56,959 bases of DNA from positions 1-56,959 of the forward strand of contig JAFUKL010000018.1 of assembly GCA_017473615.1 (NCBI GenBank), given 5' to 3'. The number at the start of each line of letters is the position of its first letter. The stretch's first letter is position 1. The notes beneath the pieces are model-generated. The model ran no database searches. It was not told the DNA's origin and was given only the letters and a program-made list of their open reading frames with translations. This DNA comes from Muribaculaceae bacterium (GTDB taxonomy: Bacteria > Bacteroidota > Bacteroidia > Bacteroidales > Muribaculaceae). Below, in pieces: positions 9,252 to 47,928 of this stretch. Position numbers and translations under genes: made by a program.

Positions 9252-9734
9252 ATGAACAACATAGAATCTGAATTTACTAAGATGGTAGAGGAGAATAAGA
9301 AAACGATTTATACCGTTTGCTATTTTTTCTCGAAAGATAACGATGAGGTTAATGACCTTTATCAAGAAATTCTTATCAATTTGTGGAAAGGTTTTGAGAC
9401 TTTTCGCGGTGAAAGTAATGTGAAAACATGGATATGGCGTATAAGTCTTAATACCTGTAACACGCAGGAACGGAAGAAGAAAAGCCGTGTACAGACTGTT
9501 CCTCTTTCGGTCGATATCGACTTGTACAACGATACTGACACAAAAAGTAAGCAGGTTCAAATGCTTTATGACAGGATAAACCGCCTTGATATTTTTGATA
9601 GAGCAATCATACTTCTTTGGTTAGAGAATATGAGCTATCAGGATATAGCCGGCGTGGTGGGGATATCGTTGTCGGGCGTCACATCAAGATTGTTCCGCAT
9701 AAAGGAACAACTAAAATCTATGTCAAACGATTAA
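9252..9734 (+). CDS. ECF-family RNA polymerase sigma factor
   Basis: 160 residues from ATG 9252 (a GTG codon immediately before it is also open). Region 2 is recognisable (DLYQEILINLWKGFETFRGESNVKTWIWRISLNTC: -10 binding and promoter melting), followed by region 4 with a helix-turn-helix (LWLENMSYQDIAGVVGISLSGVTSRLFRIKEQLK). ECF sigma factors redirect RNA polymerase to a small stress or envelope regulon and are usually held by a membrane anti-sigma partner. The next gene, 14 bases downstream, encodes a membrane protein that could be this partner. No FecR-type gene is adjacent. Confidence 0.92.
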   Translation: MNNIESEFTKMVEENKKTIYTVCYFFSKDNDEVNDLYQEILINLWKGFETFRGESNVKTWIWRISLNTCNTQERKKKSRVQTVPLSVDIDLYNDTDTKSKQVQMLYDRINRLDIFDRAIILLWLENMSYQDIAGVVGISLSGVTSRLFRIKEQLKSMSND

Positions 9735-38997: not shown

Positions 38998-39582
38998 ATG
39001 TTGCAGATACAGAATGCATTGGTGAGCTTGGATATTGTAGAGCGTTTCTTTCTGTGCGATCTCGGCAAGTGCTTGGGCGAGTGTTGTATAGAGGGTGATG
39101 CTGGGGCACCGCTTACAGAGGAGGAATATGAAACATTGAAACGTATTCTACCCGATGTGTGGGATGAACTATTGCCTAAAGCTCAAGAGGTGATTAAGGA
39201 GAAAGGCGTGGGGTACATAGACGAAGAAGGTGATTTGGTTACCCAAATAGTCGATGGCAAAAACTGTGTTTTTTCTTGCTATGGAAATAACGGTATGTGC
39301 TATTGTGCCATAGAAAAACTCTACCGTGAAGGGAAAATAGATTTTTATAAACCTATTTCATGCCATTTGTATCCACTCCGTCTCACTGAATACCCTACAT
39401 TTACGGCAGTGAACTTCCATCGCTGGAAGATATGCAAATGCGCCGAAGTACTTGGACGTAAACAGGGAGTACGTGTCTATCGTTTCTTGAAAGAACCGCT
39501 TATTCGCCGATTCGGAACTGAATGGTATGCCGAACTTGAAGAGGCATGCAGGTTGTATCTTGAAGAGTACGGAGAAGAATAA
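38998..39582 (+). CDS. DUF3109 cysteine-rich protein
   Basis: 194 residues from ATG 38998 (ATG 38980 would add six residues not seen in relatives I recall). Family features: FFLCDLGKCLGECCIEGDAGAPL at the N-terminus; a central CVFSC...GMCYCAIEKLYREGKIDFYKPISCHLYPLR; and WKICKCAEVLGRKQGVRVYRFLKEPLIR. The eight or more Cys with a His fit the CxxxCC/Fe-S or zinc-binding zinc/iron-chelating (YkgJ-like) superfamily, but function is unknown. It follows fabD in the same direction. Confidence 0.82.
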   Translation: MLQIQNALVSLDIVERFFLCDLGKCLGECCIEGDAGAPLTEEEYETLKRILPDVWDELLPKAQEVIKEKGVGYIDEEGDLVTQIVDGKNCVFSCYGNNGMCYCAIEKLYREGKIDFYKPISCHLYPLRLTEYPTFTAVNFHRWKICKCAEVLGRKQGVRVYRFLKEPLIRRFGTEWYAELEEACRLYLEEYGEE

Positions 39583-39610
39583 GACTTTGCGACAAAAAAC
39601 TCAAAATATT

Positions 39611-39640
39611 TTTGTATTTGAAAAAGTATTCGTAAATTTG
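39611..39640 (+). promoter_or_regulatory. Promoter of rpmE
   Basis: TTTG (39611-39614), an 18-base gap and TAAATTTG (39633-39640). The leader to the ATG is about 63 bases. Confidence 0.65.
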
Positions 39641-39710
39641 CACGCCATTACAGAGTTCGTGCCTTACCAGCGCGATGATTAATTGATTAATAAACAAAAG
39701 AAACATAGAA

Positions 39711-45351: not shown

Positions 45352-47064
45352 ATGGCAAATTTTTATACAGATAATCCCGATTTGAAGCATCACCTTAATC
45401 ACCCGTTGATGCGCAAAATCGTTGAGCTTAAAGAGCGCAACTATACCGATGCCGAAAAGTTTGACTATGCTCCTTTCGATTTTGAGGATGCTATGGACTC
45501 ATACGACAAAGTCCTTGAAATAGTGGGCGAACTTTGCGGTACAACCATAGCTGAAAATGCTGAAAGCGTAGACCACCAAGGTCCGCGCGTTGAAAACGGC
45601 AGAGTAATCTATGCCGATGGCACACAGCAAAACATCGATGCATGCCGTAAGGCGGGCTTGATGGGTATGGCTATGCCGCGCCGTTTCGGCGGTCTTAATT
45701 TCCCTATCACTCCGTACATTATGGCTGCCGACATCGTGAGCCGTGCCGATACCGGATTTGAAAACCTTTGGGGACTTCAGGACTGTGCCGAAACCATATA
45801 TGAATTTGCCGATGAAGACCAAAAACAACGTTATATCACTCGCGTGTGTGCCGGTGAAACAATGTCGATGGACTTGACTGAACCTGATGCAGGTTCCGAC
45901 CTTCAATCGGTAATGCTTAAAGCCACTCCGCAAGAAGACGGCACATGGCTGTTGAACGGTGTTAAGCGTTTCATCACTAATGGTGACAGCGACATTCATT
46001 TGGTGTTGGCTCGTTCAGAAGAAGGTACTAAGGACGGACGCGGTTTGTCTATGTTCATCTACGATAAGCGTAATGGTGGTGTTACTGTTCGTCGCATCGA
46101 GAATAAGATGGGTATCAAGGGCTCTCCTACATGCGAGCTTGTGTACAAAAACGCTAAGGCAGAGCTATGCGGTTCGCGTCGTCTCGGACTTATCAAGTAT
46201 GTAATGGCACTTATGAACGGCGCACGTCTTGGCATTGCTGCTCAATCGGTAGGCGTTAGCGAAATTGCTTACCGTGAGGCTCTTTCATACGCTAAGGATC
46301 GCCGTCAGTTCGGGAAGGCAATCATTGAATTCCCGGCAGTGGCAGAAATCCTTTCCACAATGAAAGCAAAACTTGATGCGTCACGTTCTCTTTTATATGC
46401 AACTGCGCGTTTCGTGGATATGTACAAGATTTATGAAGACATTGCTAAGGAGCGTACTCTTACTCCGGAAGAACGTGCTGAAATGAAATACTACAGTAAG
46501 CTTGCTGACGCATGCACTCCTATGGTTAAGGGTATGGGCAGTGAGTTCTGTAATCAAAATGCATACGACTGTATACAGATACATGGTGGTTCCGGTTTCA
46601 TGAAAGACTATGCTTGTGAGCGCATTTACCGTGATGCCCGCATCACATCTATTTATGAAGGAACAACTCAGCTTCAGGTCGTTGCTGCTATCCGCCACGT
46701 CACAACAGGAACTTATAGCAAGTTTATTCAAGAACTTGATGCTGCCGAATACGCTGAAAACCTGAAACCTCTTCAATCTAAACTTCAAGCAATGACTGCA
46801 GTTTATGAAGCGGCTCTTGCGAAAGTGGGTGAAGTTAAGGATACAGCATTTACCGATTTCATGGCTCGCCGTCTTGTAGAAATGGCAGGTCACGTAGTAA
46901 TGGGATACCTTCTTCTTGAAGACGCTACCCGTAATGGTGAGTTCGCTAAGTCGGCAAACAACTATGTGCGTTTCGGAGAAACTGAAGTTGCCCGCCACGC
47001 TGAATTTATCAATAAGTTCAACGCTGAATCTATTTCAGACTATACTTTTGCGACAGAAGAGTAA
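45352..47064 (+). CDS. Acyl-CoA dehydrogenase
   Basis: 570 residues, longer than the ~380-residue short-chain enzymes. It has the usual N-terminal helical, middle beta (MSMDLTEPDAGSDLQSV, FITNGDSD) and C-terminal helical domains, with catalytic Glu in ITSIYEGTTQLQ, plus a C-terminal extension of ~120 residues like that of PF12806 (acetyl-CoA dehydrogenase C-terminal-like) proteins. It oxidises an acyl-CoA thioester and passes electrons to EtfAB. Its operon with etfBA makes that partnership clear. Chain length preference is unknown. The operon closes with a strong terminator. Confidence 0.94.
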   Translation: MANFYTDNPDLKHHLNHPLMRKIVELKERNYTDAEKFDYAPFDFEDAMDSYDKVLEIVGELCGTTIAENAESVDHQGPRVENGRVIYADGTQQNIDACRKAGLMGMAMPRRFGGLNFPITPYIMAADIVSRADTGFENLWGLQDCAETIYEFADEDQKQRYITRVCAGETMSMDLTEPDAGSDLQSVMLKATPQEDGTWLLNGVKRFITNGDSDIHLVLARSEEGTKDGRGLSMFIYDKRNGGVTVRRIENKMGIKGSPTCELVYKNAKAELCGSRRLGLIKYVMALMNGARLGIAAQSVGVSEIAYREALSYAKDRRQFGKAIIEFPAVAEILSTMKAKLDASRSLLYATARFVDMYKIYEDIAKERTLTPEERAEMKYYSKLADACTPMVKGMGSEFCNQNAYDCIQIHGGSGFMKDYACERIYRDARITSIYEGTTQLQVVAAIRHVTTGTYSKFIQELDAAEYAENLKPLQSKLQAMTAVYEAALAKVGEVKDTAFTDFMARRLVEMAGHVVMGYLLLEDATRNGEFAKSANNYVRFGETEVARHAEFINKFNAESISDYTFATEE

Positions 47065-47093
47065 TTTGACAGTTTCAAATAAAACCATTAGAA

Positions 47094-47131
47094 ATGGGGG
47101 TGTATCGAAAAAGGATATACTCCCATTTTTA
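47094..47131 (+). terminator. Terminator of the etf operon
   Basis: A 13-bp stem (47094-47106 with 47114-47126, two G-U pairs) and TTTTTATTT. Confidence 0.85.
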
Positions 47132-47195
47132 TTTGTATTTTTATCAATGATTGGGTTTGATTTTATGCCGTGTTGTATTACTTTGAATTTCTCAA

Positions 47196-47417
47196 ATTAT
47201 ATACATTAGGGATTATTTTCTTGTTTTTAAATTGCATTATTGCTGATAAATCGCTAAATTTGCGCCCGATAGGGCATTCAATAGGCATACAAAATATATT
47301 TTCATCGGAAAAACTCGTCTTTATCGGTTTTAAAAAAGCTATATTTTTAGTATGGATAAATTTGTTCTATATATAGATTCATAACATTAGAAATTATTTT
47401 TCCCTAATGTATATAAT
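47196..47417. repeat. 17-bp perfect inverted repeat around a 188-bp promoter segment (candidate inverton)
   Basis: ATTATATACATTAGGGA at 47196-47212 recurs exactly as its reverse complement at 47401-47417. The 188 bases between have no gene but carry plus-strand promoter elements pointing at the lipoprotein gene at 47470. None were found on the minus strand of the segment or between the right repeat and the gene. A near-direct copy of part of the repeat (ACATTAGAAATTATTTT, 15 of 17 as at 47203) precedes the right arm at 47384-47400. The layout is that of a phase-variable promoter, or alternatively a small MITE. Confidence 0.6.
47232..47262 (+). promoter_or_regulatory. Promoter inside the candidate invertible segment
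   Basis: TTGC (47232-47235), 19 bases, TAAATTTG (47255-47262). A second TAAATTTG at 47357-47364 lacks a clear -33. Both read toward the lipoprotein gene in the present orientation. Confidence 0.5.
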
Positions 47418-47469
47418 AAAGGATTTGTGTTATTTATAATCAATATTAAACTAACGAAACAACAAAAAA

Positions 47470-47928
47470 ATGAAAAAAATTAATTACTTTATCGTATTAT
47501 GCGGATTGCTTTCACTTGTGACATTCGGGTTTACTTCTTGTTCTGATGACGATGAAAAATTTGACAATTCCGCTATTATAGGAAAATGGCAGCCTGTTCA
47601 TGTAGAAGGATATGAAATTTATGATGGGGATAAAGATGAATGGGAGGAAGACGAAGATGATTTATACTCGGAGTATTCGGTTGTTAAATTTAAGAAAGAT
47701 GGTTCAATTGATATATACCAATATTATGATGGTGAATTGGACGAAATCTATACAGATGCAGGTTCATTCAAATTGGACGGGAACAAGCTAAAAATTAAAT
47801 CGGAAGATGGTGTTTTAACATATAAAGTATTGTCCTTGACCGATAATAAGATGATTCTTTCTTATGAAGTAAAAGTTGAAGATTATGAGGCATACGAAGA
47901 AACTACATGGAGAAAAATAGAGGATTAA
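47470..47928 (+). CDS. Lipocalin-like lipoprotein
   Basis: 152 residues. Signal peptide with lipobox GFTSC (cysteine at about residue 24), then a Bacteroidales lipocalin-like domain: NSAIIGKWQPVHVEGYEIYDG, YSVVKFKKDGSIDIYQYYDGELDE, GSFKLDGNKLKI, and MILSYEVKVEDYEAYEETTWRKIE. The segment after the first strand is very acidic (DKDEWEEDEDDLYSE). Function of such lipoproteins is unknown. It is a single gene whose only visible promoter lies within the inverted-repeat segment upstream, so its expression may switch on and off. Confidence 0.8.
   Translation: MKKINYFIVLCGLLSLVTFGFTSCSDDDEKFDNSAIIGKWQPVHVEGYEIYDGDKDEWEEDEDDLYSEYSVVKFKKDGSIDIYQYYDGELDEIYTDAGSFKLDGNKLKIKSEDGVLTYKVLSLTDNKMILSYEVKVEDYEAYEETTWRKIED

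Follow-up and report, generated by a model that had tools for sequence, protein, structure and literature searches.

A candidate invertible promoter before a lipocalin-like lipoprotein gene of a Muribaculaceae bacterium, one of a genome-wide family of paired recombinase-type sites

The window considered here is the whole stretch of 56,959 nucleotides of contig JAFUKL010000018.1 (C7 below) from the Muribaculaceae bacterium assembly GCA_017473615.1, read on the forward strand. In this window, an intergenic region (47065-47469) lies between an acyl-CoA-dehydrogenase-like gene and a lipoprotein gene; the genes and the features found between them are as follows.

45352-47064: upstream gene, acyl-CoA-dehydrogenase-like (family name by eye)
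47089..47131, + strand: intrinsic terminator of the acyl-CoA-dehydrogenase-like gene, separating it from the predicted switch
47190..47212, + strand: left (distal) core site, with outer half TCTCAAAT, centre TATATAC and inner half ATTAGGGA
47196..47212, + strand: left arm of the 17-bp perfect inverted repeat
47213..47400, no strand: predicted invertible segment, 188 bp, 26% G+C, without a gene
47232..47262, + strand: promoter TTGC-N19-TAAATTTG, directed toward the lipoprotein gene (ON)
47386..47393, + strand: third half-site ATTAGAAA, 7 bp inside the right arm
47401..47417, - strand: right arm of the 17-bp perfect inverted repeat
47401..47423, - strand: right (gene-proximal) core site, with TCCTTTAT, centre TATATAC and ATTAGGGA
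47470..47928, + strand: proposed controlled gene, encoding a 152-aa Lipocalin_4 lipoprotein with the lipobox TSC followed by SDDDE

The sequence-only reading of this locus had proposed an invertible promoter on the grounds of a 17-bp perfect inverted repeat flanking 188 bp without a gene, and both elements of that description hold: the repeat is exact, does not extend further, and encloses no gene. Its length is well beyond that encountered in 300 dinucleotide shuffles of the 405-bp intergenic region, in which the longest perfect inverted repeat was 14 bp (0/300 reached 17). The lipoprotein gene starts 52 bp past the right arm, so the locus displays the layout of an inverton, i.e., a short intergenic segment that lies before a gene and is bounded by short inverted repeats. 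The fold of the terminator region (47066-47145) has an energy of -25.8 kcal/mol (z -5.55), and none of 200 shuffles was as good. The lipocalin-like character ascribed earlier to the downstream product is confirmed by a match to Pfam Lipocalin_4 (E 1.1e-10, above its cut-off), and the lipobox (TSC) with the acidic SDDDE after the cysteine is presumably of the kind found in surface lipoproteins.

Promoters of the Bacteroidales type possess a -33 box upstream of the -7 element. The consensus of the latter, TAnnTTTG, is given in passages of PMC4747536. On the + strand of 47065-47469 it occurs at 47255 and 47357; its absence from the opposite strand, noted initially for parts of this region, extends across the whole of 47065-47469. 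The first occurrence belongs to TTGC-N19-TAAATTTG (47232-47262), which is a full-consensus match as originally read (3/300 mononucleotide shuffles reach its score), and the segment thus contains a promoter of this form on the + strand only. The second TAAATTTG (47357) is present on the predicted strand, but as a promoter it is a weak candidate, since its upstream box matches at only 2/4 positions. The full-consensus promoter directed toward the lipoprotein gene supports the earlier assignment of the assembled orientation as ON. This region is present in the single assembly of the genome as one copy and in one orientation.

When aligned, the arms reveal a core site of the recombinase type composed of TCNCTAAT, 7 bp and ATTAGNGA, from which the left core site of the window (47190-47212) departs by one mismatch and the right one (47401-47423) by two. 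The first eight arms had been found with patterns that did not include the outer half-site, and in these the outer half-site agrees best with the inner one, reverse-complemented, at a spacing of exactly 7 bp (mean 5.4/7, compared with 1.25 to 3.1 at the 20 other spacings within 0-20 bp). The summed match over the eight arms was 43, the maximum of 200,000 random flank draws being 31, while 23 other occurrences of ATTAGNGA in the stretches examined averaged 2.7 at the 7-bp spacing. Over 14 arms the mean is 5.3, the search that yielded six of them having already scored the outer half. Across this genome, the full dyad with at most two mismatches is found at 21 sites vs. 3 for the reversed pattern. 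Target sites of the Tsr type are defined by inverted half-sites around a 6-8 bp centre that is identical in both partners; TCNCTAAT-N7-ATTAGNGA, with its sharp peak at 7 bp, has the first of these properties.

The imperfect direct copy of the arm at 47384-47400, mentioned in the sequence-only reading as a caveat, is real and corresponds to the third half-site ATTAGAAA. Such a third, TCNCTAAT-like half-site located 7 bases inside the inner half-site is recognizable (at least 5/7 matches) in 9/14 arms, with a mean of 4.9 over the 14 arms at spacing 7 vs. 1.5 to 2.7 at the 23 other spacings between 0 and 23; the left arm of the window lacks it (2/7 matches). This half-site may serve for accessory binding or as a second site of crossover.

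The arms of the window turned out to have relatives elsewhere in the genome. A search with the 17-mer allowing two mismatches returned two further matches, both in or beside another inverted pair. The pattern TANNNATTAGNGA has 20 matches in the 2,006,793-base assembly, of which 8 form four inward-facing pairs on contigs C7, C6, C9 and C39, 136-188 bp apart, and the free positions of the pattern agree within each of the four pairs; its reversed control gave 23 matches, the comparison being one of match counts only. A pair search for two inverted sites with an identical 7-bp centre and degenerate half-sites revealed 7 inverted pairs with scores of 22-26 in 367,410 bases, with one pair of score 17 in each of two controls. 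On 590,576 bases, 10 real pairs were recovered, 8 of them with a score of at least 22 (the eighth being a doubtful pair on C15), whereas the control yielded 3 pairs with a best score of 18. Since the stretches searched were picked around site-like matches and recombinase genes, the sample is biased and the count of seven is a minimum. Hence, at least seven loci in this genome carry two core sites in inverted orientation; their 7-bp centres and putative target genes are listed below, the secretion of the products being judged by eye from their N-termini.

C7 (window): centre TATATAC; target, the Lipocalin_4 lipoprotein
C6: centre TTTATTG; target, a secreted protein with chitobiase-C-terminal and Fn3-associated domains
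C9: centre TTTATTA; target, one protein, cut by the contig end
C39: centre TTTATAT; target, one of two related secreted proteins
C13: centre TATCTTA; target, the other of these two
C20: centre TTTAATG; target, one of three related secreted proteins
C11: centre TTTTTTG; targets on the left and on the right, the other two of these three

The seven centres are the same within each locus and all different between loci, although for three of the pairs identity was demanded by the search itself. At C13, C20 and C11, the two partners have different inner half-sites and the same centre, a combination expected for strand exchange by a tyrosine recombinase and not for operators. When identical centres were not demanded, 107 inverted pairs with a score of at least 20 were obtained vs. 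47 in the control. Among the 18 inverted pairs with a score of at least 23, the centres are identical in 6 and differ in 12; all of the latter are situated at C15, C11, C9, C13 and C20. They join a family site to a weaker site, except in three cases, in which both sites are good.

Several candidates were left out of the count. The C15 pair L328:2258/2686 (centre identical, score 23) was excluded, its second site lying inside a sigma-factor-like gene and having a poor inner half-site; the exact dyad at this place (L328:2250-2693, G000:C15) is located upstream of an operon of the ECF-sigma/anti-sigma/SusC-like kind (names by eye). At C15:73749/73995, two good sites have differing centres. The single sites C6:33700 and C15:43809, each before a secreted-protein gene, have no credible partner: around the former, no inverted copy of the centre occurs up to 700 bp away, and for the latter there is just the bare centre, repeated at a distance of 605 bp. 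These partnerless sites suggest that the dyad may also serve as, or derive from, a leader motif. The C9 and C13 elements of this genome (G000) are positioned within a few hundred bases of a contig end: the C9 contig starts 120 bp before the left centre, and the C13 contig ends ~380 bp after the right centre. These ends may reflect assembly trouble caused by mixed orientations.

A full-consensus promoter is present on one strand in six of the seven segments. It is directed toward the gene at C7, C6 and C13, away from the only adjacent gene start at C9 and C20, and toward the left one of two divergent paralogues at C11; promoters pointing away from a gene would be expected in an assembly derived from an inverting population. 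In shuffle tests carried out for C7, C6, C9 and C39 only, the score was reached by 3, 5, 3 and 242 of 300 shuffles, respectively, so the C39 segment has no promoter above chance. The other strand of the C9 segment bears a lone TAnnTTTG with a 2-of-4 upstream box reading toward the gene, and calling this element OFF is therefore a judgement.

The C11 element (L329:2212-2646, G000:C11) is situated between divergent paralogues whose first 20 residues are identical and whose leaders are near-identical, with one full-consensus promoter between them and a further dyad in the middle. Inversion of this element would swap which of the paralogues is expressed. The promoter segments of C11 and C20 are 82% identical over 176 bp and stand in opposite orientation. 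This is not claimed as a proof of natural inversion: the C20 protein has nearly the same identity to each of the two C11 proteins (31% and 29%), so the loss of one gene of a divergent pair explains the orientation as well as inversion does.

The profile of serine recombinases (PF00239) had no matches in the 78%-complete genome; a control of this search gave matches in 10 of 14 cases. In contrast to Mpi-type systems, therefore, no serine recombinase is seen within this assembly. The profile PF00589 had 11 matches, one of them broken by stops. None of the 11 is on the contig of the window, and PF00239 is without a match, in line with the original remark that the window has no recombinase gene. 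No PF00589 match is found closer than 7 kb to any of the seven elements, the C9 and C13 contigs ending close to theirs; a XerD gene is located at ~7 kb from the C6 element, a proximity that does not indicate a link. One match is XerD by NCBIfam, another is XerC-like by 68-73% identity to its relatives, a third shares one open frame with an hsdS-like end at a type I restriction locus, two adjoin their own local inverted repeats (C44, C39), and five reside in mobile-element or phage-like contexts (by eye). None of the 11 is linked to the sites, and none was assigned as the cognate enzyme. The 8-7-8 dyad, together with the lack of a serine-recombinase match in 78% of the genome, points to a tyrosine recombinase of the Tsr0667/Tsr19 kind.

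Judging from the sequence, 47190-47423 is very probably a phase-variable promoter inverted by a distant tyrosine recombinase. The invertible-promoter reading is stronger than it first appeared because the arms belong to a family of paired sites spread over the genome, with centres that are identical within a locus and specific to it, which also supports the initial suggestion of an invertase acting from a distance. From this arrangement we infer the occurrence of inversion, the class of the enzyme and the on/off effect on expression, as follows. A tyrosine recombinase encoded elsewhere in the genome would bind the dyad TCNCTAAT-N7-ATTAGNGA in both arms, and strand exchange across the identical 7-bp centre TATATAC would invert the 188-bp segment. 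The lipoprotein gene would be transcribed from the promoter at 47232-47262 in the orientation of the assembly (ON), whereas the inverted promoter would face back to the terminator and the 3' end of the acyl-CoA-dehydrogenase-like gene (OFF). At least six other loci, each with a 7-bp centre of its own, would most likely be served by this enzyme too, so that each switch would recombine only with itself.

Inversion is not the only way in which the dyads could be accounted for. They could be operators of a dimeric transcription factor controlling a regulon of secreted proteins, two of them flanking a promoter for looping or repression without inversion. The near-palindromic character of the 23-bp sites, the extra half-sites at a 15-bp register, the partnerless single sites directly before secreted-protein genes and the occurrence of some good sites near each other with different centres (C15, C11) would all fit such a role. 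Still, operators are a distinctly improbable explanation: their spacer need not match within a locus and differ between loci as the centres of the seven inverted pairs do, the 12 best direct-orientation pairs shown have 4-7 centre mismatches, and at two loci the full-consensus promoter is directed away from the sole neighbouring gene start. The element may also have been invertible once and be fixed now through the loss of its recombinase, the lipoprotein being always on in this lineage. This is unlikely, given that the centres remain intact at seven loci, where decay would be expected without use; the lack of a recombinase linked or assignable to the sites and the single orientation seen in a single assembly are compatible with fixation, but 22% of the genome is unassembled, so the enzyme may lie there.

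The remaining alternative, already raised in the sequence-only reading, is that the 222-bp stretch is a MITE or the relic of a transposon end, for which speak its terminal inverted repeats, AT-richness and lack of a gene. A MITE would be revealed by many near-identical copies with a conserved interior and target duplications, whereas the exact 17-mer of the arms has only these two copies in the genome, similarity between the interiors of the seven elements is limited to short weak matches (except for C11 vs. C20, which precede paralogous genes), and no target duplication longer than AA is found beside the arms of the window. This origin is accordingly disfavoured to the point of being scarcely credible.

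Invertible promoters are an already known class, and by analogy the closest precedents are the master tyrosine invertases Tsr0667 and Tsr19 of Bacteroides fragilis, which act on distant promoters. According to passages of PMC4747536, Tsr0667 serves three SusC/SusD shufflons and nine other regions. The arrangement proposed here is similar in that one tyrosine recombinase would act on many dispersed regions with surface-protein genes, a likeness of system description and not of site sequence, with an enzyme that here is only predicted. For Tsr19 (BF2766), the same passages describe a local EPS promoter and a distant one, and an inverse correlation of transcription with the number of repeat copies between the promoter and the genes. 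Action at a distance (here proposed) and extra repeat copies between promoter and gene are common to both systems, the third half-site being a parallel to the repeat copies and not a test; unlike the B. fragilis recombinase gene, which is beside one of its targets, none was found beside the seven elements. Mpi of B. fragilis is reported in the same source, as far as these passages go, to be a serine recombinase acting on 13 capsule-promoter regions. Of the likeness to capsule promoters originally suggested, the invertible promoter itself stands, with inverted promoter segments and a global enzyme (here proposed) in common; the serine sub-type is probably wrong, since dyad half-sites around a 7-bp centre speak for a tyrosine enzyme. 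A capsule-type Mpi system is thus not supported in this 78%-complete genome. Literature searches, made by topic only, did not return the site family TCNCTAAT-N7-ATTAGNGA.

A single repeat thereby becomes seven testable switches with a defined recombination-type site, and the locus-specific centres suggest how one invertase could control many dispersed promoters without scrambling the chromosome. We tentatively propose, as a possibility somewhat short of even, a species-specific switchboard of “one key, many private locks”: a single distant recombinase would recognize the same half-sites at at least seven loci, each with its own 7-bp centre, which would then flip independently and without cross-recombination. 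In this proposal, the third half-sites that many arms carry in the 15-bp register may represent a second crossover site or enable the enzyme to repress the promoter that it inverts, and the family would have expanded after the split from the closest relatives examined. The half-site motif also provides a handle for finding the enzyme and for scanning metagenomes.

A search of 397 family genomes with the exact paired-arm pattern (segment of 131-191 bp) detected the four symmetric pairs of this genome and no symmetric pair in the 396 others; there was one asymmetric match, in G381, and the reversed control produced one match in all, in G256. C11, C13 and C20 fall outside the exact pattern, so relatives with such looser pairs would be missed. 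No enrichment of the dyad was seen in two species of the same genus (dyad vs. reversed pattern, 5 vs. 8 and 15 vs. 11). A scan of the GTDB species collection, which may leave out this genome, returned two loci. Both were judged to be chance matches: L082 has unequal centres and a left arm in a reading frame, and L081 has the same 7-bp centre in both arms, unequal half-sites and a right arm in a reading frame. In viral contigs, 71 matching stretches, each on one strand only, were judged from the table alone to be chance as well.

The acyl-CoA-dehydrogenase-like protein upstream of the window element is 96% identical in the relative G001 and 92% identical in G002. The similarity of the DNA to these genomes ends 19 and 34 bases, respectively, before the end of the upstream gene, and neither relative has the lipoprotein. 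The examination of pairs in relatives covered three stretches of G001 and G002. It revealed in G001, a sister species, a candidate pair of the same site type (L327:2200-2485, G001:C29) with a score of 22 and the centre CATCATA. This pair is located between two divergent genes, SusC-like by eye, the products of which are identical over their first 37 residues. The enzyme type may therefore be older than the site family in the species of the window.

Two further inverton candidates of this genome are local. The first (L108:7327-7627; G000:C44, about 9326-9626) has 18-bp arms GTTCTACAAAAGAACCAT 265 bp apart and is located between a gene of a 397-aa tyrosine recombinase, to which a recombinase of G002 is 86% identical, and a gene with a NusG domain (UpxY-like). 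The second (L107:7484-7672; G000:C39, about 39483-39671), with 15-bp arms TCTCTTGTGAAGAGA 159 bp apart, is found between a tyrosine recombinase gene (400 aa) and an operon encoding FHA and Ser/Thr kinase domains (Pfam) along with a PP2C-like protein (by eye), which suggests phase-variable phospho-signalling. Both resemble the family in their inverted arms, in a short dyad 7 bp apart (GTTC-N7-GAAC at C44, TCTC-N7-GAGA at C39) and in their intergenic or operon-start position, but differ in the adjoining recombinase gene and in the half-sites; their best promoter scores are one match below the full consensus. At the type I restriction locus (L105:7334-11869, G000:C51), hsdS-like genes are present in both orientations (by eye), and one open frame joins an hsdS-like end and a tyrosine recombinase, an arrangement resembling a specificity shufflon. 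Between genes, an AT-rich sequence around TTTAAATTTTATTT..GA..ATTTTAAGG recurs at L105:652-848, where it forms an imperfect inverted repeat, and by eye in intergenic parts of L022, L028 and L045.
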